From Alistipes sp. (GTDB lineage Bacteria > Bacteroidota > Bacteroidia > Bacteroidales > Rikenellaceae), in NCBI GenBank assembly GCA_017938765.1, contig JAGBAX010000003.1, forward strand, positions 124,001 through 188,000: 64,000 bases of DNA. The letters are read 5' to 3'. Both the position numbers and the translations under genes were made by a program. This document shows, in pieces, positions 2,911 to 57,563 of this stretch (its first letter is position 1; each line of letters starts with the position of its first letter). The notes under the pieces were generated by a model. It saw only the letters and a program-made list of their open reading frames with translations. It was not told the origin of the DNA and made no database searches.

Positions 2911-3100
2911 GTACCGAAGCTTTTTGAAAAAAGCTTCACCAAAAACTTTATGAAAAACTTCGTTTTTCTTCCGTGCTGATGCGGATTTAGGATAGCCTTA
3001 CAGCTATTACGACAAAAAATAGAGCCATTCACTTTCAAGCAAGCTTGAGTGAGGCTCTATTTTTTTGTCGTACTCTCTGCGAGAGTTTTCCTAAATCCGA
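2911..3100 (+). repeat. Cloverleaf dispersed repeat, copy 1
   Basis: One of three related 190-200 bp elements (others at 8710 and 57370). Parts in order: hairpin 2916-2937 (perfect 10-bp arms); hairpin 2952-2968 (GAAAAAC/GTTTTTC); outer stem CGGATTTAGGA 2982-2992 with TCCTAAATCCG 3089-3099; inside it a small hairpin 2992-3007 (ATAGC/GCTAT), a long central hairpin 3009-3071 with the conserved apex TTTCAAGC..GCTTGA, and a small hairpin 3072-3086 (ACTCTC/GAGAGT). The T-run on the 3' side of the central arm may also stop transcription. It directly follows a stop codon, between convergent genes. Confidence 0.85.
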
Positions 3101-3120
3101 ACATCAATCAGCATACCGCA

Positions 3121-3246
3121 TTTTGTCGTCAGAGCGGGGCAGGTACGGTGCATCGTGAAAAAAAGTAGTGGCGGATAGTACTAAAAGGTACAGCCGCCAC
3201 TACTTTTTAAGGGATGTGCCGTAGATGCCCCGCTATCACGACAAAA
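3121..3246. terminator. Large imperfect palindrome, probable bidirectional terminator
   Basis: TTTTGTCGT (3121-3129) pairs with ACGACAAAA (3238-3246); AGCGGGGC pairs with GCCCCGCT; the inner 15-bp stem 3160-3174 / 3194-3208 (AAAAAGTAGTGGCGG with its complement) is perfect and ends in T5. It abuts the stop codon of the minus-strand gene at 3247. The size, about 125 bp, is well beyond an ordinary terminator. Confidence 0.75.
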
Positions 3247-4635
3247 TTAGAATAGGTAGCCGGTATTGATATAGAAAGCCCCCTTACCATCCTGCTTACG
3301 ATACTTTCCAACAGGCATACCGTACTCAAAAGCGACGATGAAGTTCTGATTCATAATAAAGCGAAGGCCTAAACCAGCGGTGATATGTGGCAGATCCTTA
3401 GGCTGACCCTTTGCCATATACTCCTCATACTCAGCACGATACTTATCCTCACCCTTGAAGGTCATATCATACCCGCGAGTGACATACGTTCCATCGCTAA
3501 AGAGGTTAAGACCAAAGGCTATATTCTGCTTCCAGAGTGTGAAGTTTACAAATCGCCAGCGGATTTCGGCGTTATAGGATGCCATATCAAGACCATTTAC
3601 GCGGTTACGCATAATACCACGAACAGTGCGATAGCCACCCATACCGTCGCGGTCATACTGCGGACCCATAGTCGTTAGATATGGGTTTACGTAGTATGGG
3701 GAGTTACTGCCGATACTACCCTCATAATTAAGGCGATAGGCGATAGTAAGTATATCGTTCTTAACCACAGGGATATAGTGGCGGAAGGTTACTGAGTAGC
3801 GGTAGTAAGGGTTTGTTGTTCCGAGCCACTTAGGGGCAAGGATAAGGTGTGCCTCTGCCCAGATGCCGCGTGACGGTGCGCCCTCCTTATCGCGGGTATC
3901 AAAGAGCAGACCTGCGCGAATAGTGCTATTAAGACCTCCATCAGCCTCACTATCAGAGATTAGTCCCCACTCGCGATACTGCTCGTAGAGGGTCTTCTCT
4001 GTATCTGGGAACATCTTATAGTCTGCCTTATTCTTGTTAATCTTCTCGCGGTTGATAGTCCCCTGCTTGAAGTAGCTGAAGTGGTAGCCTGCCTCCCAGA
4101 AGAGCTTATTTTTCCAAATATTACCGACAAAATCGCTCTTAAAGAGAATTGCAAGGCGGTTAATACGGTACTTTGGAGTGTAGATATACATATTCTGATT
4201 GCTCTTATCCTTTCCTGCAGCAACCTTCTCGTGGTCAAAGTAGGACATATAACCATTAAAGCCATAAAAGTCCATTGCCTTATCGTTATAGATAGTAAGA
4301 GCTGACGACCAGCGAACACCAGGGATAAGGAAGCGGTTGTCGTAAGAGACAATATACTGCTGAGAGCCCTTTGTAAAGAATGAACCCTCAATATACCACT
4401 GCTGACGGGTATTTGGATATGTGCTACCGTCGCCAAAGTCGTAGATATTGAGCAGTGCGCCGAGCTGGAAGCCCTTATCGGCATCAAAGGCTACGGCAGG
4501 CAGCGGGCCGAAGTTATAGCCCTTCTTTACAATCTCCTTTTTAGACTCTGTAGTAGTCTGACTCTTTTTCTCTTTTGCCTGCACTGCAACCGCACCAAAG
4601 CAGAGCAGAAGGGCAAGAATAACGATTCTCTTCAT
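3247..4635 (-). CDS. BamA/TamA-like outer-membrane barrel protein (DUF5982-type N-terminus)
   Basis: A 462-residue exported protein: signal peptide (MKRIVILALLLCFGAVAVQA), a short charged linker, then YNFGPLPAVAFDADKGFQLGA and a series of amphipathic beta strands rich in aromatic residues, ending with a C-terminal strand YINTGYLF whose last residue is Phe, as in barrels inserted by BAM. No POTRA domains fit in the short N-terminus, so it is an Omp85-like barrel alone. Such proteins are annotated as surface antigen D15/BamA family; the substrate is unknown. It is the last gene of a minus-strand operon, one base after the acyltransferase gene. Confidence 0.75.
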   Translation of the reverse strand: MKRIVILALLLCFGAVAVQAKEKKSQTTTESKKEIVKKGYNFGPLPAVAFDADKGFQLGALLNIYDFGDGSTYPNTRQQWYIEGSFFTKGSQQYIVSYDNRFLIPGVRWSSALTIYNDKAMDFYGFNGYMSYFDHEKVAAGKDKSNQNMYIYTPKYRINRLAILFKSDFVGNIWKNKLFWEAGYHFSYFKQGTINREKINKNKADYKMFPDTEKTLYEQYREWGLISDSEADGGLNSTIRAGLLFDTRDKEGAPSRGIWAEAHLILAPKWLGTTNPYYRYSVTFRHYIPVVKNDILTIAYRLNYEGSIGSNSPYYVNPYLTTMGPQYDRDGMGGYRTVRGIMRNRVNGLDMASYNAEIRWRFVNFTLWKQNIAFGLNLFSDGTYVTRGYDMTFKGEDKYRAEYEEYMAKGQPKDLPHITAGLGLRFIMNQNFIVAFEYGMPVGKYRKQDGKGAFYINTGYLF

Positions 4636-4636
4636 A

Positions 4637-5965
4637 TTATTTAGTTAGTATTATTTCTCTAATTTCACGATAAATAGCTCGCAAACGACTGTTAGCCAAC
4701 AGTTTAATATCTGACACGCCGAGTCGTAGCAGTCGCCAAGTCTCGTGCGCCACGATAGGTGCTGGTAGCAGAGCGAGGGTCACTGGCAGAGCCCACTGCC
4801 AAGGCAGAACAGCGTACGCCACAGCGGAGTAGATAATCATCAGCAGTGGCCAAACAAACAGGTTTACAAGATATCGGACAGAGTTGCGGAAGGCGTAATC
4901 GCGCAACTTAGTGAAGATAAAACTGCACAGTATATTTATAGGTAGCGTAAGCACAGAGACTGGTATGCAGTATGGCAGAGCCACGAGCGCAAAGAGAGTC
5001 TTGAGCACTCGCGAGAGCACTGGATACTTTACCGACACAGAGGCGAGGCTTATTCGCTGGCTCTTGCGCATCACAGAGGCTGAATTTCCAAGTTCCATAA
5101 GGCGCGCTGCCCTATCGGGGTCGTTCTGCCGAAGCTCTGCAATCTCCCTTACGGTGGTATTGTTTGCCTCAAAGTGCAAATCGAGCGGATGTTGTCGGCG
5201 AGCCGACACTGCACTCATACGGCGCACCTGACCCTTAACAACGGCGGCACAAATCTCGTATGTAGCGTCGTAGTTCTCGTCATTAGGGATGTAGAAGATG
5301 GTGTTTTTCATTCGCTCTGTAAGCACATCCTTCATCTCAACCATCTGCTCGGCTGCCTTCTGGTCGCTATGCGCGGCGATAAACTCGCCCACATTTATCG
5401 GGTCGCCAATCTGTACGCGAACAGTAGAACGGAAGCGGAAGAAGTTGCCATAACGAAGCCCCACAGGGACGATATAGAGTGGCATATCGGGCATCATCTC
5501 CTGTGCTTGAAAGGCGATGCGGAAGATACCCTTTGACAGCGGCAGTGACGAGTATTTTGCCTGATGCGTACCCTCTGGAAAGATGCAGAACGGGATTTTG
5601 TCGCGAAGTACATCTACAGCCTTCTCAAAGGTTTCGTTATTCTTCTTAACCTCATCATAGCCGTCGCGGATACGCATAATAGGCATAATCTTGAGCCATG
5701 TGAGAATCTTTGCTAACTTAGGATTACGGAAGATATCTGCGCGGGCAACAAAGACCTTTGGACGGCGATCCATAGCAAGCAATACAAGGGCGTCCATAAG
5801 GGCATTTGTGTGGTTTACGGCATATATTACCGCTCCATCCTGCGGAATCTTCTCGCGACCAACATACCTCACATTGCGATACGAGAGGCGTAGAACAAAG
5901 TCTACATAGTATCGCAAGAGGTTGTAGAGGTGGTCGTTATCCTGTATTTTACGCTCTTTTCGCAT
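4637..5965 (-). CDS. PlsC-type 1-acylglycerol-3-phosphate acyltransferase
   Basis: A membrane-associated 442-residue acyltransferase that moves fatty acyl groups onto glycerol phosphate backbones in phospholipid synthesis. Seen: the catalytic block I as NHTNALMD near residue 51 (the H-x5-D form found in this subfamily rather than H-x4-D) and block III FPEGTHQAKYS near 130. The C-terminal third has paired hydrophobic helices (about 320-400), an extension absent from short PlsC proteins. It lies between the BASS transporter gene (3 bp away) and the outer-membrane barrel gene (1 bp away), so the three are cotranscribed. Which acyl acceptor it uses cannot be told. Confidence 0.85.
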   Translation of the reverse strand: MRKERKIQDNDHLYNLLRYYVDFVLRLSYRNVRYVGREKIPQDGAVIYAVNHTNALMDALVLLAMDRRPKVFVARADIFRNPKLAKILTWLKIMPIMRIRDGYDEVKKNNETFEKAVDVLRDKIPFCIFPEGTHQAKYSSLPLSKGIFRIAFQAQEMMPDMPLYIVPVGLRYGNFFRFRSTVRVQIGDPINVGEFIAAHSDQKAAEQMVEMKDVLTERMKNTIFYIPNDENYDATYEICAAVVKGQVRRMSAVSARRQHPLDLHFEANNTTVREIAELRQNDPDRAARLMELGNSASVMRKSQRISLASVSVKYPVLSRVLKTLFALVALPYCIPVSVLTLPINILCSFIFTKLRDYAFRNSVRYLVNLFVWPLLMIIYSAVAYAVLPWQWALPVTLALLPAPIVAHETWRLLRLGVSDIKLLANSRLRAIYREIREIILTK

Positions 5966-5968
5966 AAT

Positions 5969-6922
5969 CTACTCTGTAATTGGTTTGCGGCGGAAGAAGT
6001 ATGCCACCGTGAGGCCAGAAACAATATGCCAGATACCCCACCAAGCTGTCACAATCAGCATACCGCCATAGTGTCCGTGCCAAATCTCTGGCGGGAAGAT
6101 AGCGGGGTTAAAGAGCAATATAAGTCCCAAGCCAGAGTTCTGAATGCCGACCTCAATAGTGAGCGAGCGGCAATCCTTCAAAGGCAGCTTTGATAATCGG
6201 CCACCGAAATATCCTGTAGCGAGCGCGCAGGCATTATGCAAAAGGACAATAAAGAAGATATAGAAGATATTATCTACAATAATCTGGAAGTTCTGCGAGA
6301 AGGATGCTATAACCATTCCGATAAAGAGCAGAATAGAGACCACCTGCGCAGGCTTAGTAATCCTCTTTGTGGCATTAGGGAAGTACTTTGCAAAGACAAG
6401 ACCCAGCACAATAGGCACACCGAGCAGCAGCAGAATCTGCTCAAGCATAGGCCAGAACGGAATAACAAGCACTGGAATATCGTTATGCACAGTGGCAAAG
6501 TGGCTGTAGAGATTACCCCAAACAAAGAAGTTGAGCGGGGTGATTATCGGAGCAAAAGCCGTAGAGATAGCCGTCATAGATACGCTCAACTCCACATTAC
6601 CCTTTGACAGTGACGAGATAAAGTTAGATATGTTACCACCTGGACAGCAGGCAACAAGTATCATACCCAGAGCGACCATCGGCGTGATAAATGGATTAAG
6701 CACCAACGCCACAGCAAAAGTGACAGCCGGAAGAGCAACCCACTGCAAGAGAATACCGACAATTACTGATTTAGGTTTCTTAAATACATCCCTAAATGTC
6801 TCTGTCTTAATGCCCAGCGCCACGCCGAACATCACAAAGGCCAGGATAATATTTACAATCATCATACCTCCCTGGCCGAAGTTGATTGTAAGACTGCTTA
6901 AAGACTCTAATTGTTCTCTCAT
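5969..6922 (-). CDS. Bile acid:sodium symporter (BASS) family transporter
   Basis: A polytopic inner-membrane protein of 317 residues. Hydrophobic segments run the full length, with family landmarks: MVALGMILVACCPGGNISN (the CPGG.SN loop), the following SKGNVELSVSMTAIST, and EVGIQNSGLGLILL (ExGxQN), which line the sodium and substrate site in BASS proteins. Bacterial members carry organic anions; bile acids need not be the substrate. It heads the three-gene minus operon 6922-3247. A TATATTTG box on minus at 7041-7048 could be its promoter, giving a leader of about 115 nt. Confidence 0.85.
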   Translation of the reverse strand: MREQLESLSSLTINFGQGGMMIVNIILAFVMFGVALGIKTETFRDVFKKPKSVIVGILLQWVALPAVTFAVALVLNPFITPMVALGMILVACCPGGNISNFISSLSKGNVELSVSMTAISTAFAPIITPLNFFVWGNLYSHFATVHNDIPVLVIPFWPMLEQILLLLGVPIVLGLVFAKYFPNATKRITKPAQVVSILLFIGMVIASFSQNFQIIVDNIFYIFFIVLLHNACALATGYFGGRLSKLPLKDCRSLTIEVGIQNSGLGLILLFNPAIFPPEIWHGHYGGMLIVTAWWGIWHIVSGLTVAYFFRRKPITE

Positions 6923-7599: not shown

Positions 7600-7622
7600 C
7601 AACAACTTAAAACTATACGACT

Positions 7623-8174: not shown

Positions 8175-8549
8175 ATGGCAACGAAGTTTTTTAAGTGCCG
8201 CCACTGTGGCAATGTAATTGAGAAGGTAGTAGATTCAGGCGTAGCAGTTGTCTGCTGCGGCGAGAAGATGGAGGAGCTTGTTCCTAATACCGTTGAGGCA
8301 AGCGGTGAGAAGCACATCCCAGTAGTTACTCGCATAGACGAGTGTTCAATAAAGGTTGAGGTGGGCAGTGTACCGCACCCAATGCTCCCAGAGCACCACA
8401 TCGCCTTTATCTATGTTGAGACCGAGGATGGCGGCATCCGCATCAACCTCAAGGATAAGCCAGAGGCTATTGTCTGCACCTGCAGCAGCAAGCCAGTGGC
8501 AGTATATGAGTACTGCAACCTGCACGGTCTGTGGAAGACAGAGCTGTAG
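8175..8549 (+). CDS. dfx: Desulfoferrodoxin (class I superoxide reductase)
   Basis: A 124-residue enzyme that reduces superoxide to hydrogen peroxide without making oxygen. The N-terminal desulforedoxin domain carries the Fe-Cys4 ligands C8, C11, C27 and C28. The catalytic Fe centre has H47 (in GEKHIPV), H68, H74 or H75 (PEHHIAF), C114 and H117 (CNLHG). The flexible loop residue before H47 is E45-K46, as in active enzymes. Last gene of the stress operon, closed by a terminator. Confidence 0.95.
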   Translation: MATKFFKCRHCGNVIEKVVDSGVAVVCCGEKMEELVPNTVEASGEKHIPVVTRIDECSIKVEVGSVPHPMLPEHHIAFIYVETEDGGIRINLKDKPEAIVCTCSSKPVAVYEYCNLHGLWKTEL

Positions 8550-8644: not shown

Positions 8645-8709
8645 TCATAGCAAACCTGCCTACCCTCACCCTCGACTCTGGCGAACAACTCTCATATCAT
8701 AATTAGAGC

Positions 8710-8912
8710 TGACGCGTACTGCCCGCTTTTTGAAAAAAGCAGGGCGTGCAAAAACTTTCTGAGAAACTTCGTTTCTCTTCTGTGTTGATGCGGATTTAGG
8801 GTAACTCTACGAGTTATTGAAATAGTAAATATCCACCTTTGGTTTCAAGCGAGCTTGACCTTTGGTGGATATTTTATATTTCACTGCCTTGCGGCAGCAA
8901 CCTAAATCCGAA
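8710..8912 (+). repeat. Cloverleaf dispersed repeat, copy 2
   Basis: Same architecture as copy 1: hairpin 8722-8744; hairpin 8761-8777 (GAGAAAC/GTTTCTC); outer stem CGGATTTAGG 8791-8800 with CCTAAATCCG 8901-8910; left hairpin 8802-8816 (TAACTC/GAGTTA); central hairpin 8818-8883 with arms ending ATATCCACC / GGTGGATAT and the conserved TTTCAAGC..GCTTGA apex; right hairpin 8884-8897 (CTGCC/GGCAG). The inner arms differ in sequence from copies 1 and 3 but remain paired. Confidence 0.85.
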
Positions 8913-9078
8913 TAGACTCAAAAGCGAATTCAAATTTCCTTAACCTCATTAATTTCCTTAAATTCTCTATTCTGCGTTAGATAGCCAACGCTGCGATTAA
9001 GCCGAGAGCAATCAAACTTGTTTGAATTGCCGAGGCGGAGCGGTGAAGGGTCACCAAAGGTGAGCCAATGGCTAACGG
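8913..9078. repeat. Hairpin-rich spacer with TTAGC/GGCTAA repeats
   Basis: Between copy 2 and the gene ending at 9079. Contains short hairpins GCGTT/AACGC, CAAAC-TT-GTTTG (about 9013-9024), GGTGA-AGGG-TCACC (9042-9055) and overlapping TCACC-AAA-GGTGA, then a tandem of GGCTAA/AGCTAA units running into the stop codon. The same units recur near 32978-33103, 38444-38475 and 39001-39022. No coding content. Confidence 0.6.
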
Positions 9079-10392
9079 CTAATAGCTAACAGCTACCTTG
9101 TAAGGTACTCCATTCAGCACACTACGATAACTACGATAGTAAGTACCATACTTATTCATAGCAGTAGTGACGGTAGTCTCGCAGCGGACGGAGATATACC
9201 AGCGGCCAGGCTTAGGGTTGTTGATTGTAAGGCTCTTCTTGCAGCCGCGAGAGACAACCTTTTCGGTGGTATTGTCGTGGAAGGCCAACTCTCCGCGCTT
9301 GGCTAACAGTGTAAGGTCAAACTTCTTTGCTTCCTCGTAACCGTCAAGAGTGATTTTCAAACTCTTACACCCTCTTGGAACATCTACAGCAAAGTGGTGG
9401 TACTGAAGGTCGCCAATGCGAGTATAGTCGGGGTCGTTATCCTCGGTGCGCTTGTTCATCTCGCGCACAATGCCATTTTCAAGCACTCCCTTAATCTGAG
9501 GCTCTGGATTGCCGTCCATAGCATAGAGGAGCATTGCTGCAGTGAGTTTTAGTCGCTCGCCCTCGGCAATAGCCTCTGGGTGAGAGCCACACAGCACCGT
9601 TCTACCGACGCTCTGCATAGGCTTATATGCCCAGATGCACAGCTCGCCATCAATCTTCACTTTGTCTGTATTGTTAAACTTATATCGCGCCAGCGGCTCA
9701 GTTTCCACAGGAAGTTCACAGGCATAGCAGCCGCCATTGTGGCGCACATCATCTACTGCGTTATCCTTGCCAAAGTCAAAGTATCGCAAAAGTGGGCAGC
9801 CGCGCTCAAGATTAAGGGTTGTAGATTGCTTTTTTAGACCTGTAGAGTATCCATAACCAGGCCAGAGGCTGAAATATTTATCTACATTTCTATATCCCTT
9901 GCTATTTTTACCACCCCTTGCGCCGAGATACGCACCCGCGCAAGTGCCGAAGTATGAGCCACCTGCCGCGACAAACTCTCTAACGCGCTCGCGACCACTT
10001 TCGCCCAAAGAGCGGGCGTGCTTAAGTGCCGAGCCACCATTGACATATATCATACGAAAGCGTGGTGCGCCATCGGGATAGAGAAGCCAACCGTTTGTAT
10101 CCTCCTCACTACCACAGAAGACCTTTGACTGCAGAAGGGTATCTTTTTCGGTAAGTTTTTTGTTTGACGCCGATGCAAAGTACTCTATATCAAGGCCTAA
10201 GTATCGTGCCGAAGGAAGATATGTGCGCGAGGTAAGGGCAATGCCGCTATCCATAAAGATATCCTTATAGTATCCGCGACCTCGGTCAAGGACTTGCTGT
10301 CGCGCCTTGTCGCGCTTGTCGGCAAATGCCTCTGCTGGCACAACTGCTCCAATCAAAAAGAGGGTTAAAGCGGTAAAAATTGCTCGTTTCAT
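9079..10392 (-). CDS. Exported GATase1-like (BPL_N-type) protein with C-terminal PPC-like domain
   Basis: A 437-residue exported protein. After a signal peptide (to about residue 22) comes a class I glutamine-amidotransferase-like domain with YVNGGSALKHAR and the nucleophile elbow GGSYFGTCAGAYLGAR, where C151 would be the nucleophile; this resembles the BPL_N family. The C-terminal 110 residues (HFAVDVPRGCKSLKITLDG ... PKPGRWYISVRC) look like a pre-peptidase C-terminal beta domain. Substrate unknown; such proteins may be peptidases or hydrolases. Last gene of the seven-gene lptB operon, 15 bp after the M23 peptidase gene. Confidence 0.7.
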   Translation of the reverse strand: MKRAIFTALTLFLIGAVVPAEAFADKRDKARQQVLDRGRGYYKDIFMDSGIALTSRTYLPSARYLGLDIEYFASASNKKLTEKDTLLQSKVFCGSEEDTNGWLLYPDGAPRFRMIYVNGGSALKHARSLGESGRERVREFVAAGGSYFGTCAGAYLGARGGKNSKGYRNVDKYFSLWPGYGYSTGLKKQSTTLNLERGCPLLRYFDFGKDNAVDDVRHNGGCYACELPVETEPLARYKFNNTDKVKIDGELCIWAYKPMQSVGRTVLCGSHPEAIAEGERLKLTAAMLLYAMDGNPEPQIKGVLENGIVREMNKRTEDNDPDYTRIGDLQYHHFAVDVPRGCKSLKITLDGYEEAKKFDLTLLAKRGELAFHDNTTEKVVSRGCKKSLTINNPKPGRWYISVRCETTVTTAMNKYGTYYRSYRSVLNGVPYKVAVSY

Positions 10393-18981: not shown

Positions 18982-19039
<58 letters not shown>

Positions 19040-19055
<16 letters not shown>

Positions 19056-19223
19056 CTAAAAAAGACAAATCGCAAGATTTGTCTTTTTTGTTAGTGGAGT
19101 GGAGGCGAGAACCACTGGTTCGAACCGACGCTGCGGAGCGAGAGCAGAGGGTGCTTGCACACTTTGCCGAGCCGCGAGGAGGAAAAGCAAATCTTTGATT
19201 TGATTAGTCCCACTCCCGCTACT
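19040..19223 (+). repeat. Direct repeat of the tRNA 3' end flanking a 148-bp insert
   Basis: AGTCCCACTCCCGCTACT occurs at 19040-19057 (end of the tRNA plus 2 nt) and again at 19206-19223. The intervening DNA holds its own terminator and several hairpins: GAACC-ACT-GGTTC, CGCT-GCGG-AGCG, GTGC-TT-GCAC and CAAATC-TTT-GATTTG. A duplicated tRNA 3' end is what site-specific integration leaves behind; no integrase is present, so this would be a small remnant or a local duplication. Confidence 0.6.
19058..19089 (+). terminator. Terminator after tRNA-fMet
   Basis: 14-bp stem AAAAAAGACAAATC / GATTTGTCTTTTTT with loop GCAA, ending in T6. Confidence 0.9.
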
Positions 19224-19225
19224 TT

Positions 19226-19255
19226 AACGGATAACTTTGGTTATCCGTTTTTTTT
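19226..19255 (+). terminator. Second terminator after the duplicated tRNA end
   Basis: AACGGATAAC / GTTATCCGTT with loop TTTG followed by T-run. It lies 3 bp after the second copy of the tRNA tail and may be the original tRNA terminator, displaced by the insert. Confidence 0.85.
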
Positions 19256-19594
19256 GTTTTTATCTGTAATATACGACGCGGCAGAGGCAACTGCGTTGCT
19301 TTGTTATAAGATGTGATGATGTTTGAAAAGAACTTTTCACATCACACATCTTACAACATCGCCTTTGGCGACTCTGTCGCTCGTTGTAAAAATCGGTAGT
19401 GGCTCTTTGTAGTGTGGTTACCTCCTCGGTCTTTCGCGCACCAAGCGGTGCTTGACTGTCTCTACGGCGATGATGAAAAAAATTGCAGAAATTAAAAAAT
19501 CTACCAATAAGCCCATTCTCCTTTACGCCTATAAATAATTTAAGACTAATAATATAGCTACATTAAGCCAAAATAAAGGAGGGGATAAATTTTA
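19256..19594. other. Hairpin-rich non-coding region upstream of susC
   Basis: No gene. A long hairpin 19307-19353 has arms TAAGATGTG / CACATCTTA, then TGATG / CATCA and TGAAAAG / CTTTTCA. Directly next, TTACAAC / GTTGTAA encloses TCGCC-TTT-GGCGA (about 19351-19388). GCACC-AAGC-GGTGC follows near 19438-19451. The part from about 19490 is AT-rich and leads to the susC promoter. Regulatory use is unknown. Confidence 0.5.
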
Positions 19595-29115: not shown

Positions 29116-30321
29116 ATGAAACGAATAGTATCAATAGTGTTGTTGTCGCTGGCGGTGGTTCTCTTCACCGCCGGCTACAACGGCAAAAAGGCACGCATAG
29201 GACAAACTCTACCCGCTTGGAGTGAGGGGTACTTTGATATCCACACCATAAGCACGGGTCGAGGTGAGTGTCTGCTGCTTATTATGCCCGATGGAACAAC
29301 AATGGTTGTTGATGCAGGCGAATTTAGCCGCGAGGGCAAGAAGCACAAGAATGTACTTCAGCGTCCAAATGACAAGACTCGCCCTACAAAGGCCTTTGCC
29401 GACTATATCCGCCACTTTATACCTGAGGGCAGAAGTGCTGTAGACTACTTTAACCTCTCGCACTTCCATATGGACCATATGGGAAACCTTGAGCCAGAGT
29501 ATGAGCACTTCGCAGAGGGTAACTACACCCTTACGGGCGTTATGTCGCTCTACCACCACATCCCTTTCCGCGAGATTAACGACCGCGCTTATGGCGCATA
29601 TGACTCGCTGAAGGTTAAGGCTATGAGCGTAGGGGTTATGGAGCACTACAAGCGATTTATCAACTACAACATGGCTAAAAATGGCCTTAAGGCGACCCGC
29701 TTTGAGCTTGGCGCAGTAAATCAGTTTGCGATGCAGTATAAGCCTGAGAAGTATCCAAACTTCAGAATTGAGAACGTCTGCTCAAATGGCTATGTGTGGG
29801 ACAATGGCAAGGCTGTGGATGTCTACGAGGATATTCGTAGTAAGATTCGTGAGAATGCATCTTCGTGCGGCTTTGTTGTTCGCTACGGCAAGTTTGACTT
29901 CCTCACAGCGGGCGATATTGGCGACTACAACGACCTTGAGCTTTGTGTAGCAAAGGCCGTAGGAGAGGTTGATGCCGTAAAGGCACATCACCATCTATCG
30001 CCACACTCTATGTGCCGTCCATCTATGGAGGTGCTACGCCCAAAGACCCTTGTGGCAACAAGTTTCTATGTGCGTGAAATTCAACCTGATAAGAGCAAAT
30101 TCGGGTTTATAAACAATCTTGGCTGCGACATCTATTGCACAAGTGTTGGCGAGGCTCTTCTTGAGCAGTATCCGCAGGAGTATGCAGCATGCAAAGCCAC
30201 CAGCGGACATATCGTCATCCGTGTGGCTCCTAAGGGAAACAAGTACTGGGTATATACCCTTGATGATAGTAATAGCGAGTACCGAGTAACAAGAATTGAC
30301 GGTCCATTCAAATGTAAGTAA
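29116..30321 (+). CDS. Exported ComEC-type metallo-beta-lactamase-fold hydrolase (paralogue 1 of 3)
   Basis: A 401-residue exported protein with an N-terminal hydrophobic segment (MKRIVSIVLLSLAVVLFTAG) and no clear lipobox. The MBL fold of the ComEC C-terminal type is visible: STGRGECLLLIMPDGTTMVVDAGEF (compare VGQGDAxLI...DGG in ComEC), the metal-binding SHFHMDHMG near residue 118, a GDIG late motif and KAHHHLSPHS near 295. These residues suggest a two-metal phosphodiesterase or related hydrolase in the periplasm or at the surface. First of three tandem copies, 23 bp after the FISUMP lipoprotein gene. Substrate unknown. Confidence 0.8.
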   Translation: MKRIVSIVLLSLAVVLFTAGYNGKKARIGQTLPAWSEGYFDIHTISTGRGECLLLIMPDGTTMVVDAGEFSREGKKHKNVLQRPNDKTRPTKAFADYIRHFIPEGRSAVDYFNLSHFHMDHMGNLEPEYEHFAEGNYTLTGVMSLYHHIPFREINDRAYGAYDSLKVKAMSVGVMEHYKRFINYNMAKNGLKATRFELGAVNQFAMQYKPEKYPNFRIENVCSNGYVWDNGKAVDVYEDIRSKIRENASSCGFVVRYGKFDFLTAGDIGDYNDLELCVAKAVGEVDAVKAHHHLSPHSMCRPSMEVLRPKTLVATSFYVREIQPDKSKFGFINNLGCDIYCTSVGEALLEQYPQEYAACKATSGHIVIRVAPKGNKYWVYTLDDSNSEYRVTRIDGPFKCK

Positions 30322-30323
30322 AA

Positions 30324-31637
30324 ATGAGAAGCACTCTCTATTGGATAACTACCCTACTCTCTGTCCTGCTACTCTCTTGTGGTGGGGATGATGTAAAGAT
30401 GCCTTGGGAAGACGACCTTGGCAAGGGCGAGCAGGAACAGCAGAAGCCAGAGCCAGAGCCTGACAATCCAGAGCCTGACAACCCTACGCCAGACCAGCCT
30501 GCTGACAACATTATCGGTCAGCCACTTGCTGCGTGGAGCGAGGGCGAATTGGATATTCACACCATAAGCACTGGCCGAGGCGAGTGTCTGTTCTTCATTC
30601 TTCCAGATGGAACGACTATGGTTGTTGATGCAGGCGAGTTTAGCCGCGAACCAGCCGACTACAAGAATGTACTTCAGCGTCCAAATGCTCAGACTCGTCC
30701 AACGAAGGTCTATGGCGACTACATCAAGCACTTCCTGCCTCGTGGTCGCAGCGCGATAGACTATATGCACATCTCACACTTCCATATGGACCATATGGGT
30801 AACCTTGAGAAGGAGTACACAAAGGATGAGAGTGGTACATATACCCTTGCGGGCGTTACTGCCCTCTATCATCACATTCCGTTTATAGAGGTTATTGACC
30901 GCGCATATGGCAACTACGATGGGCTGAAGGTAAACAGTATGAGTGAGGCAGCCCTTGCCAACTACCGCAAGTTTGTAGAGTATCAAGTGGCTAAGAAGGC
31001 TCTGCAGGCATCGCAGTTTAAGGTGGGTGCAGTAAATCAGTTTGCAATGAAGTACAACGCGGCAGCATATCCCAACTTCCGCATTGAGAATGTCTGCGCA
31101 AACTGCTCTCTGTGGCAGAACGGACAGTCGGTAGATATCTATGCCCAGAAGGGTGCAGCAAAGGCCGAGAATGCCGCTTCGTGTGGATTTGTTATCCGCT
31201 ATGGAGACTTTGACTTCCACACAGCAGGCGATATTGGCGACTACTACGACTATGAGTATGCTGTGGCAAGCGTGGTAGGTCAAGTGGAGGCTACAAAGGC
31301 GCATCATCACCTCTCTCCGCACTCAAACTGCAAGAAGGCTATGAATGTTCTCAAGCCAAAAGTTCTCGTAGCAACGAGCTTCTATGTGCGTGATATTCAG
31401 CCTGATAAGAGTAAGTTTGACTATATCACAGCTGGCGGTTGCGACATCTACTGCACAAGCGTGGGCGAGAGTCTGCTTGAGCAATATCCACTGGAGTATA
31501 TCAAGTGTAACGCCACAAGTGGACACATCGTTATCCGCGTGGCTAAGGGTGGCGAGAGCTTTATGGTCTACACCCTTGATGACAGCAACAGCAATTACAC
31601 AGTAAAACGAGTTGATGGACCATATAATAACTATTAA
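30324..31637 (+). CDS. ComEC-type MBL-fold lipoprotein (paralogue 2 of 3)
   Basis: A 437-residue lipoprotein (lipobox LLLSC, Cys near 19) with a Pro/Glu/Asp-rich spacer (about 35-65) that would hold the enzyme away from the membrane, as in surface-exposed lipoproteins. The MBL domain closely follows paralogue 1: STGRGECLFFILPDGTTMVV, SHFHMDHMG, ALYHHIPFIEVIDRAYG, GDIGDYYDYE and KAHHHLSPHSN. All putative metal ligands are kept. It begins 2 bp after the previous stop, so the three copies are cotranscribed. Confidence 0.82.
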   Translation: MRSTLYWITTLLSVLLLSCGGDDVKMPWEDDLGKGEQEQQKPEPEPDNPEPDNPTPDQPADNIIGQPLAAWSEGELDIHTISTGRGECLFFILPDGTTMVVDAGEFSREPADYKNVLQRPNAQTRPTKVYGDYIKHFLPRGRSAIDYMHISHFHMDHMGNLEKEYTKDESGTYTLAGVTALYHHIPFIEVIDRAYGNYDGLKVNSMSEAALANYRKFVEYQVAKKALQASQFKVGAVNQFAMKYNAAAYPNFRIENVCANCSLWQNGQSVDIYAQKGAAKAENAASCGFVIRYGDFDFHTAGDIGDYYDYEYAVASVVGQVEATKAHHHLSPHSNCKKAMNVLKPKVLVATSFYVRDIQPDKSKFDYITAGGCDIYCTSVGESLLEQYPLEYIKCNATSGHIVIRVAKGGESFMVYTLDDSNSNYTVKRVDGPYNNY

Positions 31638-31643
31638 TACGAA

Positions 31644-32942
31644 ATGAAAAAGATTCTTTGGATAGTACCACTTGCCACACTGTTAGCCGTAGGCTGTGGC
31701 GGTGAAAGTAGTAGTATGCCTTGGGAGGATGACCTCGGCGGCGGAAATCAGAAGCCAGAACCAAAACCAGACGACACTCTTGTTGAGGTTGGCAAGCCAT
31801 TGCCAGTATGGAAAAAGGGAGAGCTTGACATCCACTTCATTAACACTGGTCGTGGCGAGTGTTGCTACTACATTCTGCCTGACGGCACAACGCTTCTTGT
31901 AGATGCAGGAGAGGTTAAGGCAACGCACGATGCAACTGATACATCTGCTGATGCGGCTGTGCCACAGAGGCCAAATGCCGATGTGCGCCCATATATTGCC
32001 CAAGCTCGCTATATCAAGCACTTCGCACCAAATGGTAGAGTGTTTATTGACTACTGCGCACCATCGCACTTCCATATTGACCACATTGGCTCAACAGGTA
32101 TGGCCACAGAGACTGCTGCTGCAGGATATAAGAAGTCTGGACTTACGGCACTCTATGATGAGGTGCCATATGGTAAGGTTATTGACCGCGCATACCCAGA
32201 CTACCCTACTGATGACAGCCACTCTACAATCCCAGCGATGGACGGCCAGTTGCGTAACGACTGGGCAAAGTTTGTCAAGTGGGGCGTTGCTGAGGGTAAA
32301 TTTAAGGCTGAGCGATTTGAGGTCGGCAAGCAGCAGATAACACTGCTTAACGACCCTAAGGCATATGCAGGCTTTAAGATATTTAACATCTGCGCAAATG
32401 GTTTTGTATGGTCTAAAAATGGCATTAGCGGCTCAAAGTCAGGCGCGGGAAATCCTGCATCGTGCGGCTTCCACCTCAGCTATGGACTATTTGACTATAT
32501 CGCCTGCGGAGACCTTACCTCTGCACCTCAAAACCTTGTGGCATACTACTTCCGCGATTTTATCGGCGAGGGACACCTTGACGCCTTTAAGTGCCACCAC
32601 CACTTGAGCGCAAATGCGTGGGGCTCGCAGATGCAGGCTCAAAATTTCAACCCTCGCGTGATTGTCAACCAGAACTTCTACACCAAGCAGCCTGATGCTG
32701 GACATGTTAATGACCTTATGGACAACAAGTACTCCTTCTGGGTTAAGGACTTCTTCACTACAAACCTACATCCATACTACCACCAATCAAACAAGGATGC
32801 TGTAAGTAAGATGACAGGCTACGACGGCCATATCGTTATCCGCGTGGCAAACGGTGGCGGAGAGTTCTATGTCTATATGCTTGACGACACCGACTTTGAA
32901 TATAAGGTAAAGTCTATTCACGGCCCGTATACTTCAAAATAA
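31644..32942 (+). CDS. ComEC-type MBL-fold lipoprotein (paralogue 3 of 3, divergent)
   Basis: A 432-residue lipoprotein (lipobox LLAVGC, Cys near 18), with the same short acidic motif after the lipid anchor as paralogue 2 (MPWEDDLGGG against MPWEDDLGKG). The MBL core is conserved but the sequence is the most diverged: NTGRGECCYYILPDGTTLLVDAGE, SHFHIDHIGSTG, CGDLTS in place of GDIGDY, and KCHHHLSANAW in place of HHHLSPHS. The middle has an insertion with YPTDDSHSTIPAMDG. This points to different substrate recognition. Last gene of the locus, ending in a strong terminator. Confidence 0.8.
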   Translation: MKKILWIVPLATLLAVGCGGESSSMPWEDDLGGGNQKPEPKPDDTLVEVGKPLPVWKKGELDIHFINTGRGECCYYILPDGTTLLVDAGEVKATHDATDTSADAAVPQRPNADVRPYIAQARYIKHFAPNGRVFIDYCAPSHFHIDHIGSTGMATETAAAGYKKSGLTALYDEVPYGKVIDRAYPDYPTDDSHSTIPAMDGQLRNDWAKFVKWGVAEGKFKAERFEVGKQQITLLNDPKAYAGFKIFNICANGFVWSKNGISGSKSGAGNPASCGFHLSYGLFDYIACGDLTSAPQNLVAYYFRDFIGEGHLDAFKCHHHLSANAWGSQMQAQNFNPRVIVNQNFYTKQPDAGHVNDLMDNKYSFWVKDFFTTNLHPYYHQSNKDAVSKMTGYDGHIVIRVANGGGEFYVYMLDDTDFEYKVKSIHGPYTSK

Positions 32943-32977: not shown

Positions 32978-33103
32978 ATTAGCCTTTAGCCATTGGCCAT
33001 TAGCTATTGGCCTTATAGAGGTGTCGGCAGAGCCGACTAATATAAATCCGCGTAGCGGATACCACTGAAAAGCTAATGGCTAAAGGCTAATAGCTAATGG
33101 CTA
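32978..33103. repeat. TTAGCC-repeat palindromic element
   Basis: Left arm 32979-33012 and right arm 33071-33103 are built from TTAGCC / ATTAGCT units in opposite orientation and can pair roughly. Between them are two perfect 6-3-6 hairpins, GTCGGC-AGA-GCCGAC (33023-33037) and ATCCGC-GTA-GCGGAT (33046-33060). It fills the gap between convergent genes and touches the asnA stop. Related units occur at 9060, 38444 and 39001. Confidence 0.7.
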
Positions 33104-38412: not shown

Positions 38413-38443
38413 AAAAAAAGAGTCCCGCAGGACTCTTTTTTTT
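38412..38443 (+). terminator. Terminator of the esterase operon
   Basis: A-run then GAGTCC / GGACTC with loop CGCA, then T8; 14-bp stem including the A/T part. Confidence 0.92.
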
Positions 38444-39185
38444 GGCTATTAGCCGTTGGCCTTTAGCCATTGGCTTTTTTTAGAGTACGGTTAACAAAGA
38501 GTGTAACGATGTAACTCGTGTAACAGCTGTGCGTACCCCTGTTACAGCGTTACATTGTTACATTGTGTATTACAACCCACCGTGCGGATAGTCTTGCTCT
38601 CTGTCAAGGAGTGACGACTGACGAAAGTATAGGGGTTTCGTCGGTCGTCACCCTCTCTACTATCAATGTCCAGTAAATAGAGTCTCAGTAATTCAATGAT
38701 TGATAGCTCATTGCTTCCTATCGCATTGATATTACCAAGCCTTATATATAGGCAGAGCCTATGATTGCCATAGATGGCAGTTGTCTCTGCTCGGCAGGTA
38801 ACATCTCGGCCATAGTAGGCGAGGCAAAGAGTAAAAAGACCTCTCTTACGACGGCTCTTGTGGCGAGTGCTATTGCCTATCGCGTCAAGGCCACACAAGC
38901 CTTTAAAAATATATCTAATAATATAACACTCAATGTGTTATGGTTAGATACGGAGCAGAGCGAGTACTACCGAGTGTGAACTCGCGGAGCGGATACCGCA
39001 TAGCTAACAGCTAACGGCTAACCGAGATGTAACAATGTAACAATGTAACGCCGTAACAGGGGGTGTGTCGTGCTGTTACACTATGTTACACTACCCGTTC
39101 TGAGATGAGTTGAGAGGGTGACGACCGACGAAACCCCTATACTTTGGTCGGTCGGTCACCCCTTGACAGAGAGTATAAGGAGATT
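38444..39185. mobile_element. Degraded element bounded by inverted modules
   Basis: Non-coding, apart from the fragment listed separately. Two modules occur on each side of it in opposite orientation. Module B is an iteron-like series of TGTTAC/GTAACA units (38501-38575 and 39026-39094). Module A holds GGGTGACGACCGACGAAA...CCCCTATAC and GACAGAGAG (about 38597-38658 and 39110-39173); each copy also folds on itself. Order on plus is B', A', fragment, B, A, so it is not a plain terminal inverted repeat. GGCTAA-type units flank at 38444-38475 and 39001-39022. This looks like the wreck of an integrated or mobilisable element; no transposase or integrase is left. Confidence 0.5.
38761..38979 (+). 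pseudogene. Fragment of a RepA-like AAA ATPase/helicase
   Basis: A 72-residue frame contains SAGNISAIVGEAKSKKTSLTT, a Walker A of the GxAKSxKT type, and LNVLWLDTEQSEYY, a Walker B-like strand, with the spacing expected of the AAA_25/RepA-like helicases of Bacteroidales mobile elements. It stops directly after SEYYRV, far short of the 300 or more residues of such proteins, and has no N-terminal part. So it is a remnant, in keeping with the inverted modules around it. Confidence 0.6.
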
Positions 39186-39321
39186 AAGGAGATTAGCGAA
39201 ATACTCACTAAATTCCCTAACTTCCCTAACTTCTCTGTACTGCGTTAGCAAGCCACCAAGGGTAATTCGCGCACCTCGGAGGAGAAGTGGGCAGATTTCT
39301 CTGCCCGCTATGACGACCAAG

Positions 39322-52593: not shown

Positions 52594-52621
52594 TAATATT
52601 ATTTGACACCTATTTACTATT

Positions 52622-52669
52622 CTCTCATAATTTATTATCTTTGCAAAAAAAGATAGTATATTATGAGAG
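52622..52669. promoter_or_regulatory. Palindrome over the panE promoter and start codon
   Basis: Arms 52622-52642 and 52649-52669 match at 19 of 21 positions around GCAAAA. The left arm contains the -7 box TATCTTTG (52636-52643) and the right arm contains the ATG (52663). It could be an operator for a dimeric regulator that occludes the promoter. Confidence 0.6.
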
Positions 52670-53664: not shown

Positions 53665-53666
53665 CT

Positions 53667-55436: not shown

Positions 55437-55445
55437 AGTCTACAG

Positions 55446-55476
55446 TTTGCAATTCAAACAGTTTTTAGTAACTTTG
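55446..55476 (+). promoter_or_regulatory. Promoter of the FAD oxidoreductase gene
   Basis: TTTG (55446-55449), 19 bp, TAACTTTG (55469-55476); leader of about 26 nt. Confidence 0.85.
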
Positions 55477-55505
55477 CAGTATAAAATACCTAAAAAACCA
55501 ATTAT

Positions 55506-57359
55506 ATGAACTCTATTATGCGAATTTTTGCGGCAGCCCTTGTTCTGCTTATGCCGCTAACAGCCTCGGCTCAAATGAGAACAGAGGCCAACACCCCTGA
55601 AGTAAAGAAGCAGGTTGAGCTTACTGCAGATGTTGTTGTCTGCGGTGGTGGTCTGGCTGGCGTCTGCGCAGCCGTTTCTGCTGCTCGTCACGGCGCAACT
55701 GTCGTTCTTGTTCAGGACCGCCCAGTGCTTGGTGGTAATGCCTCAAGTGAAATGCGTATGGGTATTGTCGGCACAAAGATTGACGATACTCAGGAGACTG
55801 GTATCCTTGAGGAGATGCAGCTCCGCAACTTCTACTACAACCCACTCCAGCGCTACACTATGTGGGATGATGCTATCTACTCAACCGTTGTTTCAGAGCC
55901 AAATATCACCCTGCTGCTTAACACATCTGTAAACGATGTTGTTATGAACGGCGAGCGCATTGCTGCTGTAAAGGCTTGGAACATAAACGCTTACACAGAG
56001 TACAAGATTAACGGTACTATCTTTGCCGACTGTACTGGTGACGGTATTCTACGCCTCTCTGGTGCAAAGTATCGTCACGGACGTGAAAACCCTGCCGAGT
56101 TCAACGAGAACTGCCAGGCCGAGGGCAACGACACAAAGACTATGGGTAACTCAATCCTTATCCAGCTTCGCAAGACTGATGTAGATGTACCTTTCAAGGC
56201 TCCAGAGTGGGCATACCACTTTACCGATGCAGACTTTGACTACACCGTGCCAGAATCTACAATCCCTGGTATGAAGTTCAACTACAAGCGCATCTACCAC
56301 CCACACGACAACAACTTCTGGTGGTGCGAGTTCGGTGGTAACTTTGACACTATTGCCGATGCAAACGATATTCAGTATGAGCTCAAGCGCATCGTTTATG
56401 GTATTTGGGAGTATATGAAGAACCACCCAGATGGTCGTGGTAAGGGTTATGAGCTTGACTGGATTGGCTCTCTGCCTGGTAAGCGCGAGAGTACCCGCTT
56501 CGTAGGTCCACACATCCTCACGCAGCACGATGTACTCTCTGGCGGTCACTTCCCAGATGTTGTCGCTTATGGCGGTTGGACCCTTGATGACCACCACCCA
56601 GATGCATTCCACAAGAAGGGTGCAATCTCTGTTGAGTATACCGTACCACAGGGCTTCGGAATCCCATTTGGCTGCCTCTACTCTGTCAATGTACCAAACC
56701 TTATGTTCGCAGGTCGTGACATCTCGGCTACACATATGGGTCTCTCTGCTACCCGCGTAATGGCTACTTGCGCGCTGCTCGGTCAGGCAGCAGGTACTGG
56801 CGCAGCTGTGGCTATTGAGAAGGGCATTGACCCAGCACAGGTACACAAGGAGCATATCGCTCAGGTGCAGGCAATGCTTGAGGATGACGATGTTATGCTC
56901 CCTTACCGCTGGCGTAAAATCTCTGAGCTTACTGCAAAGGCAAAGGTTAGCGAGGATATTGAGATTCTGCGCAACGGTATCGACCGCAACTGGCAGGGTC
57001 AGGATAATGGCGTATGGGTAGCTCCAAATGAGAATACTATCACCTACACTTGGAAGAAGCCTGTTACAGTGAGCGCTGCGCGTATGATTTTTGACTCCGA
57101 GCTTAAGGTGCGTAGCAAGCGTATGCGTAAGCTTGAGGCTACAACAGAGCGCGTAGAGATTCCAAAGGTTATGGCTAAGGGCTTCAAGATTGAGGCGCTT
57201 GTTGGCAAAGAGTGGAAGACCCTCTACTCTGACGACGATAACTACCTGCGCCTGCGTAAGGTTACCTTTGAGCCAGTAGAGACCAAACAGCTCCGCCTCG
57301 TAGTTACCGAGACTTGGGGCGCTGAAAAGGCACATATCTTCGCCTTTGACGCACTGTAG
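55506..57359 (+). CDS. Exported FAD-dependent oxidoreductase
   Basis: A 617-residue exported flavoprotein. Signal peptide ends near TASAQ (residue 23). The FAD-binding motif is ADVVVCGGGLAGVCAAVSAARHG (about 41-63), followed by LVQDRPVLGGNASSEMRMG. A CTGDG motif (FADCTGDGILRLSGA) and the late FAD motif NLMFAGRDISATHMGLSATRVMATC complete the FAD_oxidored fold. The C-terminal 120 residues form a beta domain resembling F5/8-type modules. Redox reaction and substrate unknown; its place behind a GH123-like enzyme suggests glycan processing. Codons are GGT/GCT rich. Start ATG 55506. Confidence 0.85.
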   Translation: MNSIMRIFAAALVLLMPLTASAQMRTEANTPEVKKQVELTADVVVCGGGLAGVCAAVSAARHGATVVLVQDRPVLGGNASSEMRMGIVGTKIDDTQETGILEEMQLRNFYYNPLQRYTMWDDAIYSTVVSEPNITLLLNTSVNDVVMNGERIAAVKAWNINAYTEYKINGTIFADCTGDGILRLSGAKYRHGRENPAEFNENCQAEGNDTKTMGNSILIQLRKTDVDVPFKAPEWAYHFTDADFDYTVPESTIPGMKFNYKRIYHPHDNNFWWCEFGGNFDTIADANDIQYELKRIVYGIWEYMKNHPDGRGKGYELDWIGSLPGKRESTRFVGPHILTQHDVLSGGHFPDVVAYGGWTLDDHHPDAFHKKGAISVEYTVPQGFGIPFGCLYSVNVPNLMFAGRDISATHMGLSATRVMATCALLGQAAGTGAAVAIEKGIDPAQVHKEHIAQVQAMLEDDDVMLPYRWRKISELTAKAKVSEDIEILRNGIDRNWQGQDNGVWVAPNENTITYTWKKPVTVSAARMIFDSELKVRSKRMRKLEATTERVEIPKVMAKGFKIEALVGKEWKTLYSDDDNYLRLRKVTFEPVETKQLRLVVTETWGAEKAHIFAFDAL

Positions 57360-57369
57360 TTCGGCTACG

Positions 57370-57563
57370 CAGTACTGCCCGCTTTTTGAAAAAAGCAGGG
57401 CGTGCAAAAACTTTCGGCAAAACTCTGTTTTGCTTCCATACTGATGCGGATTTAGGATAGCCTTGCGGCTATTACGACAAAAAATAGAGCCATTCACTTT
57501 CAAGCACGCTTGAGTGTGGCTCTATTTTTCTTCGTACTCTCTGCGAGAGTTTCCTAAATCCGA
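57370..57563 (+). repeat. Cloverleaf dispersed repeat, copy 3
   Basis: Hairpin 57378-57400; hairpin 57417-57433 (GCAAAAC/GTTTTGC); outer stem CGGATTTAGGA 57447-57457 with TCCTAAATCCG 57552-57562; left hairpin 57457-57472 (ATAGCC/GGCTAT); central hairpin 57474-57535 with the conserved TTTCAAGC..GCTTGA apex and two mismatches near its base; right hairpin 57536-57550 (ACTCTC/GAGAGT). Closest to copy 1, from which it differs by compensating changes in the left and second hairpins. Between convergent genes, directly after a stop codon. Confidence 0.85.

Follow-up and report, generated by a model that had tools for sequence, protein, structure and literature searches.

Cloverleaf-shaped intergenic elements of Alistipes: probable two-way terminators with inherited positions and apparently exchanged interiors

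Why should a folded repeat return at the ends of converging genes while the sequence of its stems changes from copy to copy? The question is raised by a stretch of 64,000 nucleotides of Alistipes sp. DNA, called here the window, in which a sequence-only reading had pointed out three elements formed by two 5' hairpins and a three-armed cloverleaf. The elements are present at those places, all on the + strand, and reading the sequence confirmed the listed arms and their compensating changes. The cloverleaf of copy 1 (2982..3099) is closed by the stem CGGATTTAGG/CCTAAATCCG and preceded by hairpin 1 (2916..2937) and hairpin 2 (2952..2968, GAAAAAC/GTTTTTC). In copy 2 (cloverleaf at 8791..8910) the hairpins lie at 8721..8745 and 8761..8777 (GAGAAAC/GTTTCTC, the latter also terminator-like in a simple scan), and in copy 3 (57447..57562) at 57377..57401 and 57417..57433 (GCAAAAC/GTTTTGC). 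The gene coordinates agree with the three copies lying between convergent genes. Copy 1 is flanked by the gene of a PepSY-like protein (2465..2899, +), with 82 nt between its stop codon and the cloverleaf, and by an Omp85-domain gene (3247..4635, −), and copy 3 by those of a FAD-dependent oxidoreductase (55506..57359, +) and an alpha/beta hydrolase (57605..58405, −). The convergent gene of copy 2 encodes BPL_N and PPC domains (9079..10392, −) and its nearest intact upstream gene a desulfoferrodoxin (8175..8549, +), but the element is directly preceded by the relic of a lost gene (8662..8706, +), a remnant of the 3' end of a gene present at greater length in a relative (SIG178, L122).

A covariance-model search of the same genome, in which 150 of 992 candidates were scored, gave at least 35 distinct element sites, well beyond the three of the window, and a pattern search gave 31 matches against 5 for a reversed control pattern. 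Within one genus, 51 of 180 species have related copies, in some cases by a single weak match, and a limited scan of the phylum gave one weak match outside the genus. Since these scans, made with a model (R2) built from 16 of 20 diverse copies, scored 20 (genus) and 12 (phylum) candidates per genome, copy counts are minimum values, and the element can be called absent from other genera only provisionally. The named carriers are Alistipes/Rikenellaceae genomes, mainly from ruminant gut; the scan that gave them demanded an exact closing stem (95 stretches, 80 loci) and possibly left out the window's own records. Two sets of copies were compared. The first holds 84 copies from named genomes (79 distinct rows). 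Of these, 83 were picked up solely through the closing-stem pattern and the remaining one through the model, so that the interior was hardly selected for. The second holds 60 diverse elements (64 sites with repeats counted once) found with a structure model; their high pairing is therefore partly selection, which makes the 84-copy set the cleaner test of the interior. The assemblies are drafts, largely metagenomic (that of the window's genome is 87% complete), and the gene calls come from a simple ORF routine. The family matches no curated RNA family: at gathering scores Rfam gave only a tRNA in the window, and for 9 loci searched at E up to 1 it gave nine miRNA/sRNA matches, all far below gathering. 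A phage origin was rejected, with 0 exact pattern matches in viral contigs.

The element is a four-way junction of about 106–127 nt, made of a closing stem, a left hairpin, a long central arm and a right hairpin. The closing stem, of about 10 bp, covaries across lineages and forms terminal inverted repeats as in a MITE. The apex TTTCAAGC..GCTTGA, described earlier as conserved, is indeed present in the three window copies, whereas family-wide it is kept more loosely. What persists while the stems change is an apical mark consisting of a T-rich bulge on the 5' side, 3–6 bp and usually a 4-nt loop: among the 60 diverse elements, 53 have a loop of 4 nt, 53 have the first bulge below it on the 5' side only, and 44 have exactly two bases there. 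Both strands of each window core are more stable than dinucleotide shuffles by 9.6 to 11.7 SD, whether RNA or DNA energies are used. DNA energies give the cloverleaf on either strand of every window copy, and the three-branched shape in 59/60 sense and 60/60 antisense strands of the diverse set; with RNA energies the latter numbers are 48/60 and 52/60 (1 and 0 in shuffled sequences). Multiloops and G-T pairs are handled differently by the DNA energies, which keeps the comparison between both foldings from being a clean test.

Covariation is strong over the 84 copies: both partners vary in 28 of the 44 pairs, pairing holds in 96.0% of 3453 cells (92.6% in the basal, non-contiguous stem), and the score of 0.373 compares with 0.142 in shuffles and with no more than 0.087 when partners are slid. 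Of five covariation measures, one, the number of further pair types, showed no excess (55, against 55.1 in shuffles). None of the outcomes that the sequence-only reading had named as grounds against itself appeared: the copies number at least 35, covariation is strong and Rfam gives no match. The claim that covariation means selection on the fold calls for caution. The shape is kept, as can be seen from the basal stem, whose strands are not contiguous, and from stems unrelated in sequence between species; on the other hand, whole arms appear to be swapped between copies, and one such event alters both sides of an arm.

Within the window's genome, 28 of 30 copies follow a gene in sense, and the closing stem starts about 74–99 nt past the stop codon in 22 of these 28; copy 2 of the window is the 23rd when its spacing of 84 nt is counted from the stop of the gene relic. 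The downstream gene is convergent for 22 of the 30. In the 84-copy set, 69 of 83 scored upstream genes run in sense, and 52 of 69 scored downstream genes are convergent. Convergent junctions carry 23 of 32 copies, though they are only 114 of 949 junctions (1.18 Mb).

This placement suggests a role in ending transcription. A simple consensus terminator scan caught only a small part of the elements, mostly missing the bulged central arms, and a fold-based scan was therefore used. It predicted terminators in both directions at all 23 element-bearing convergent junctions; when the cloverleaf was masked, predictions remained at most of these junctions, 15 in sense and 16 in antisense. The other convergent junctions had 46/70 and 45/70, and divergent control junctions 20/93 and 33/93; element junctions are longer than the rest, which makes chance predictions likelier there. 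An A-tract and a T-tract flank the central arm, giving a stem followed by a T-tract whichever way it is read. The location at gene 3' ends, and the bidirectional terminator as a prediction, both proposed from the window alone, thus gain support, and we think that the element is probably a two-way transcription stop signal. Termination needs the central arm only, so it leaves the closing stem and the side hairpins unexplained.

Could the cloverleaf instead work as a structured RNA in the 3' untranslated region, stabilizing the mRNA or binding a protein, with selection acting on the transcript? The sense orientation directly past the stop codon, the very stable fold, the apical loop and bulge that resemble a recognition feature, and the cloverleaf that most diverse sense strands retain with RNA energies all speak for it. 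A structured RNA should favour wobbles on the transcribed strand, yet G-T pairs (G-U in RNA) did not exceed A-C in any of three counts: 42 against 44 in the 84-copy set, 17 against 56 in the 60 diverse elements, and 6 against 15 in fully stacked cells (p = 0.08). Judged by RNA energies, sense is more stable than antisense in only 12/60 diverse elements, and in 13/108 of the CGGATTTAGG family, and with the same energies copies 1 and 3 prefer a rod to the cloverleaf in sense. The 3'-end RNA of the sequence-only reading keeps its location but is weakened as to function: sense-RNA function is less supported, because the sense strand carries no G-U signature, even if selection on both RNA strands would likewise leave no wobble asymmetry. 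All considered, we find this explanation rather unlikely.

In this family, sites and contents seem to have separate histories. Where proteins are at least 90% identical, 20 of 22 comparisons show an element after the ortholog; below 90% it was found by pattern in 4 of 15, so that slots are lost, or come to hold other elements, as distance grows. The loci in this comparison were chosen as element carriers. Over the whole ortholog table, the pattern picked up an element within 700 nt in 72 of 101 comparisons and none in the other 29; among those starting from the window's genome, 13 of 37 are without one (2 with an identity of at least 90%, 11 with less). Some of these element-less sites hold a second structured family, and others neither. 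The cloverleaves at orthologous sites are hardly more alike than any others, with a median identity of 0.75 in 22 orthologous pairs, which overlap one another and are drawn from four genomes, against 0.73 in 1045 non-orthologous pairs (p = 0.16); five of the 22 are at least 90% alike. Normalised linkage, pooled over nine genomes, is 0.72–0.98 between paired strands and 0.43–0.73 between unpaired parts of the cloverleaf, with no clear dependence on distance inside it (0.66 for left and right arms about 85 nt apart), whereas it falls to 0.08 between the cloverleaf and hairpin 2, about 30 nt away. Moreover, closing-stem families differ at one slot between species (G000_L018/L094, L026/L087, L009/L088, N_L180/L256).

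We think it somewhat more likely than not that these are bidirectional terminators housed in a DNA-level cruciform element and homogenised by exchange between copies. The elements would be genus-specific, long-resident and set just past stop codons; the central arm, with its A-tract, stem and T-tract, would serve as intrinsic terminator for both converging genes, within a larger palindrome completed by two side hairpins and the closing stem, whose four-way junction is predicted to form on either DNA strand. Slots would pass down between close species while their interiors are repeatedly overwritten from other genomic copies, the cloverleaf being the likely unit of exchange, apart from its 5' hairpin. 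The simplest route would be ectopic gene conversion, or else template switching, between palindromes at which replication is stalled or broken. Near-perfect complementarity would be kept if DNA folding or two-way termination is selected, or if palindromes are corrected against themselves.

The exchange itself has to be weighed against an assembly artefact, given that all the named carriers listed are MAGs, that a number of copies lie near contig ends, and that short reads could mis-join the interiors of repeats of about 190 bp and so imitate exchange. Random mis-joins would break complementarity, but this is intact in most copies, including the basal stem; five of the 22 orthologous pairs retain their content, and one slot can hold different closing-stem families in different species. 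We thus hold an artefact to be very unlikely as the general cause, although one mosaic copy with a broken basal stem (L182:426-546) might be a mis-join. It is similarly improbable, in our opinion, that the exchange is addressed by shape, with a putative protein reading the bulged apical hairpin on one strand and swapping or re-copying interiors between slots. The near absence of linkage to the neighbouring hairpin, the asymmetric mark kept while stems change and the different closing-stem families at one slot would fit such a mechanism, but no candidate enzyme was found, and ordinary gene conversion between copies would yield much the same pattern. Integron-like recombination was set aside, as no genome of the 180 has an integron integrase (TIGR02249) over the 265-bit cut-off (best score 140.1), in a search without positive control, none of 14 control genomes passing either. 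The TIGR02249 model matches general tyrosine recombinases in 179 of the 180 genomes, which says nothing on integrons. A wider version of the same idea, a class of DNA elements defined by shape only, with inherited position, an interior traded as a unit and a bulged-T hairpin as strand mark read by a protein, is distinctly doubtful too; if true, sequence would be free, and shape and address heritable.

A mobile palindrome of REP or MITE type, moved by a transposase in trans and inserting near stop codons or terminators, would account for the dispersed copies, for slots so often unshared below 90% identity and for the near-identical copies seen at several sites of a relative (G102). A hairpin with a bulged T is also reminiscent of the sites that single-strand recombinases read. 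However, the HUH/RAYT movement suggested for the window is unsupported and was rejected: a search for Y1_Tnp gave none in the window's genome (87% complete) and positives in 2 of 180 genus members, one of them a fragment, while 5 of 14 control genomes were positive. A search for IS91-type Y2 transposase gave 0/180, and control genomes were likewise negative, which makes it uninformative. The size exceeds the 20–40 bp of REP palindromes, and the four nucleotides preceding the closing stem are variable (GATG, GTTG, GCTG and others), the GTAG tag being confined to G006-type copies and L256 among the 60 diverse elements. No clean empty site appeared when eight slots of G000 were compared with G028 or G081: five hold an intact element in both genomes, and at the other three G028 retains a truncated remnant, in one case at a contig end. 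We therefore give little credence to mobility of this kind.

How do the proposed terminator-bearing cruciforms compare with known systems? Dispersed palindromes are common in bacteria, and normally their sequence is conserved. EFAR of Enterococcus faecalis is a palindromic intergenic family of about 170 bp that provides bidirectional terminators; like YPAL of Yersinia, it is a sequence-conserved family of one or few species, and we know of no shape conservation with free sequence in either. Integron attC sites do conserve shape over sequence, mark the strand by extrahelical bases and lie past a stop codon, three traits shared by the cloverleaf; attC is, unlike it, one long hairpin found in arrays, whereas the cloverleaf is a dispersed four-way junction. 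Within the genus, the content of a site appears to be swapped faster than the neighbouring genes diverge, while shape, apical mark and post-stop place stay. The family offers a naturally occurring set of versions of one fold that are unrelated in sequence, in which one can ask whether cruciform, RNA or two-way terminator is selected, and a warning that a palindrome can give strong covariation statistics with no sign of selection on the sense RNA.

Among published families, YPAL is likewise palindromic, intergenic and about 170 bp long (PMC2267715). REPs measure 20–40 bp, carry a GTAG or CGTC tag and often go with a RAYT; the cloverleaf differs from REP, BIME and REPIN as described there in its ~106–127 bp, inconsistent tag and lack of a detected RAYT, and its wobbles are rare whereas GT pairing is frequent in REP stems (PMC3733652). 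SPRITE, BOX and RUP of Streptococcus pneumoniae are dispersed structured repeats enriched between convergent genes, with slow new insertions at present; BOX is modular, and SPRITE resembles an intrinsic terminator with its 18 bp duplex and U-rich tract (PMC3049150). As described in that source, they are without a four-way junction, stem change at constant shape across species or interior exchange at fixed slots (PMC3049150). Finally, a survey of human microbiomes gave 250 palindromic candidate RNAs, of which 230 are predicted terminators and some mostly from Bacteroidetes; in the part of it consulted no three-armed element is named, and one Alistipes candidate is a 49 bp palindrome upstream of ribosomal protein L20 (PMC8040213).

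The three elements that the sequence-only reading had described in the window were found as described when the sequence was read at their places, and the observation stands. Each element comprises two small hairpins (hairpin 1 and hairpin 2), followed by a cloverleaf core of 116–120 nt, in which a closing stem, a left hairpin, a central arm, and a right hairpin meet in a four-way junction. The folding energy of the window copies lies 9.6 to 11.7 SD under that of shuffles. In the assembly that includes the window (GCA_017938765.1; 2.10 Mb, 29 contigs, 87% complete), the closing-stem pattern occurs at 31 sites vs. 5 with the reversed pattern. The proposed genome-wide search was performed with a covariance model made from 30 of these 31 sites (R1), which located at least 35 distinct sites in the same genome with 150 of 992 candidates scored; 31 of its 66 matches there are the opposite strand of an already counted site. 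Named genomes supplied 84 copies, 83 collected via the closing-stem pattern and one via the model, and these confirmed the compensating stem changes, with a covariation score of 0.373 vs. 0.142 for shuffled copies and 0.087 or less for slid partners. Both sides change in 28 of 44 pairs and 96.0% of 3453 cells are paired, the closing stem being almost invariant by construction because it was selected by its pattern, and further pair types, one of five measures, equal the shuffles (55 vs. 55.1). The cloverleaf fold is genuine.

R1 was positive in 11 of 61 genomes, our own included, all 11 belonging to one genus, and part of its matches are quite unlike in sequence. Minimum-energy folds, judged by eye, gave the same four-way junction for 17 of 20 fetched diverse copies; locus L204 lacks the left arm in its minimum-energy fold, and L217 and L218, the latter a truncated copy, fold differently. 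A second model made from 16 of the 20 (R2) was positive in at least 51 of 180 genus members, again with our own and in some cases through one weak match, and outside the genus in 1 of 295 genomes sampled from the phylum, also weakly. The named carriers are Alistipes sp. and Rikenellaceae bacterium MAGs with mostly ruminant-gut labels. A set of 60 distinct elements has 2580 stem cells, of which 93.7% are Watson–Crick, a figure partly selected since these elements were found by structure, and most stem positions hold three or four pair types. Across the genus, the cloverleaf shape stays while its sequence is replaced. The apical loop measures 4 nt in 53 of the 60. For 44 of the 60, the first irregularity below the loop is limited to two bases of the 5' side, and these are TT in 38 elements. 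Counting all sizes, this irregularity is confined to the 5' side in 53 and to the 3' side in 3, and because of this the near-palindrome is directional. At L182:426-546, a mosaic cloverleaf has a different ring type on its left and right, which breaks the basal stem; it is either a recombinant or an assembly chimera. In relative G102, the cloverleaf copy at L249 starts within the 5' hairpin 1, as though a deletion had fused the shared CGAGAA motifs.

The position of the element is tied to gene ends. In our genome, a gene in sense precedes 28 of 30 copies, with about 74–99 nt from the stop codon to the start of the closing stem in 22 of the 28, and the downstream gene is convergent in 22 of 30, not convergent in 6, and replaced by a contig end in 2. 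Window copy 2 (cloverleaf 8791–8910) is one of the six distance outliers; upstream of it is a relic of a gene 3' end (8662–8706), whose stop codon lies 84 nt 5' of the cloverleaf. A longer version of the relic gene exists in relative SIG178 (L122), and the element has persisted despite the loss of most of the gene. Among 83 scored copies of the named genomes, the upstream gene is in sense for 69, opposite for 11, and not found for 3. In joined contigs from three genomes, convergent junctions, 114 of all 949, hold 23 of 32 copies, tandem ones 6, and others 3; in our genome, 17 of 79 convergent junctions hold an element. Some copies in relative G006 stand head to head, spaced 73 or 193 nt. A single housekeeping gene, presumably queA, has an element on both sides (L024/L025): the 5' one keeps the same unusual orientation in several species, and the 3' one is missing in six comparisons at about 85% identity.

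The place of an element after a given gene, its slot, can be followed between species. For the upstream genes of our genome, 22 comparisons reached ≥90% protein identity, of which 20 showed an element after the ortholog, vs. 4 of the 15 at lower identity, the loci being mostly chosen for bearing an element. Of the two misses above 90%, one is window copy 2, where the relic serves as the slot gene, and the other has a remnant in the slot. Between contigs of genome G000 and those of G028 and G081, 5 of 8 comparable slots contain an intact element in both; in the other three, G000 carries an element and G028 keeps a truncated remnant, at a contig end in one case. The interior at a shared slot is usually a different version: in 22 shared-slot pairs for which one or both flanking proteins are 90–100% identical, the median interior identity is 0.75 vs. 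0.73 in 1045 non-orthologous pairs (p = 0.16), with ≥90% identity in 5 of the 22. A weak ortholog signal is retained in the stretch of the 5' hairpins (mean 0.84 vs. 0.77, p = 0.001). As slots are shared, interiors changed, and remnants present where an intact element is missing, the slots look old and their contents young among close species; in more distant ones, entire closing-stem families differ at one slot. In the alignments, hairpin 1, hairpin 2, cloverleaf, and downstream modules vary independently between conserved junction boxes. Normalised mutual information reaches 0.72–0.98 for paired strands (0.76 for the basal strands, about 65 nt apart) and 0.43–0.73 for unpaired cloverleaf parts, without clear effect of distance (left vs. 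right arms, about 85 nt apart, 0.66; basal stem vs. adjacent central arm, 0.54), and is 0.08 for hairpin 2 vs. the cloverleaf about 30 nt away. Several combinations of central arm and basal stem occur (109 of 114 copies scored), and the most frequent central arm is present in 8 of 10 genomes.

Selection on a sense RNA would be expected to tolerate G-U more than A-C. No G-U excess was observed in the named set (42 vs. 44), in the diverse set (17 vs. 56, some A-C cells being poorly aligned stem ends), or in fully stacked cells (6 vs. 15, p = 0.08). Greater stability of the sense strand was calculated for 12 of 60 elements with RNA energies and for 9 of 60 with DNA energies. With DNA energies, the three-branched shape forms in 59 of 60 sense strands and in all 60 antisense strands (shuffled controls, 1 and 0), and with RNA energies, which handle multiloops differently, in 48 and 52; in the CGGATTTAGG family (108 copies), the counts are 99 and 107 (DNA) and 83 and 98 (RNA). 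The lack of G-U preference and these predicted folds make a sense-only RNA less likely, in our view, than a shape at the DNA level or a two-way constraint. The central arm is bordered by an A-tract and a T-tract, and a fold-based scan predicted terminators both ways at 23 of 23 element junctions. With the cloverleaf masked, 15 sense and 16 antisense predictions are left, and the cloverleaf is the sole predicted terminator in 8 and 7 cases, respectively. Predictions were obtained in 46 (sense) and 45 (antisense) of 70 other convergent junctions and in 20 and 33 of 93 divergent controls, sets unmatched in length to the long element junctions (205–624 nt). These predictions support bidirectional termination, and we think that termination, as predicted, is the likeliest function of the element.

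Mobility by a Y1/HUH transposase, which the sequence-only reading had considered, is not supported, the gene being found in 2 of 180 genus members and not in our 87% complete genome. No integron integrase scored over the cut-off in 180 genomes, in a search run without positive control, the IS91-type search had no functioning control, and neither Rfam nor, for exact matches to the pattern, viral contigs returned the element. No earlier description was found in the open-access literature searched, although one may exist. The nearest known kinds are REP/BIME, the pneumococcal BOX/RUP/SPRITE, YPAL, and EFAR. The element belongs to the dispersed palindromes, among which it is distinguished by free sequence with conserved shape and by interiors that are apparently exchanged at slots shared between species.

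Other repeats were noted as well. A second structured family, with ends TTTTGTCGT...ACGACAAAA and a nested rod enclosing an A/T-tract hairpin (window ~3117–3246; also L001, L004, L097, and L156), often lies 3' of the cloverleaf or replaces it directly after a stop codon, and its arms differ between species. Short tandem 9-mer-like runs (GGCTAATGGCTAAC) adjoin gene ends at 9063–9095, 33071–33103, 38438–38478, and 38988–39020, and a small TTCCCTAACTTCC-like repeat occurs at 8937–8968, 39196–39245, and 57578–57609, two of the three adjoining elements. A 47-nt inverted repeat (38615–38661 and 39108–39154; 94% complementary, 446 nt apart) is overlapped in span by a 31-nt inverted pair (38536–38566/39032–39062). 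A tRNA gene (18982–19055) has its 3' end repeated 166 nt downstream (19040–19092 and 19206–19258); each copy precedes an inverted repeat carrying a T-run, and this duplication is possibly an integration remnant. Finally, three tandem ORFs of 401, 437, and 432 aa at 29116–32942, with common repeats spaced ~1316 nt, are probably paralogous genes.
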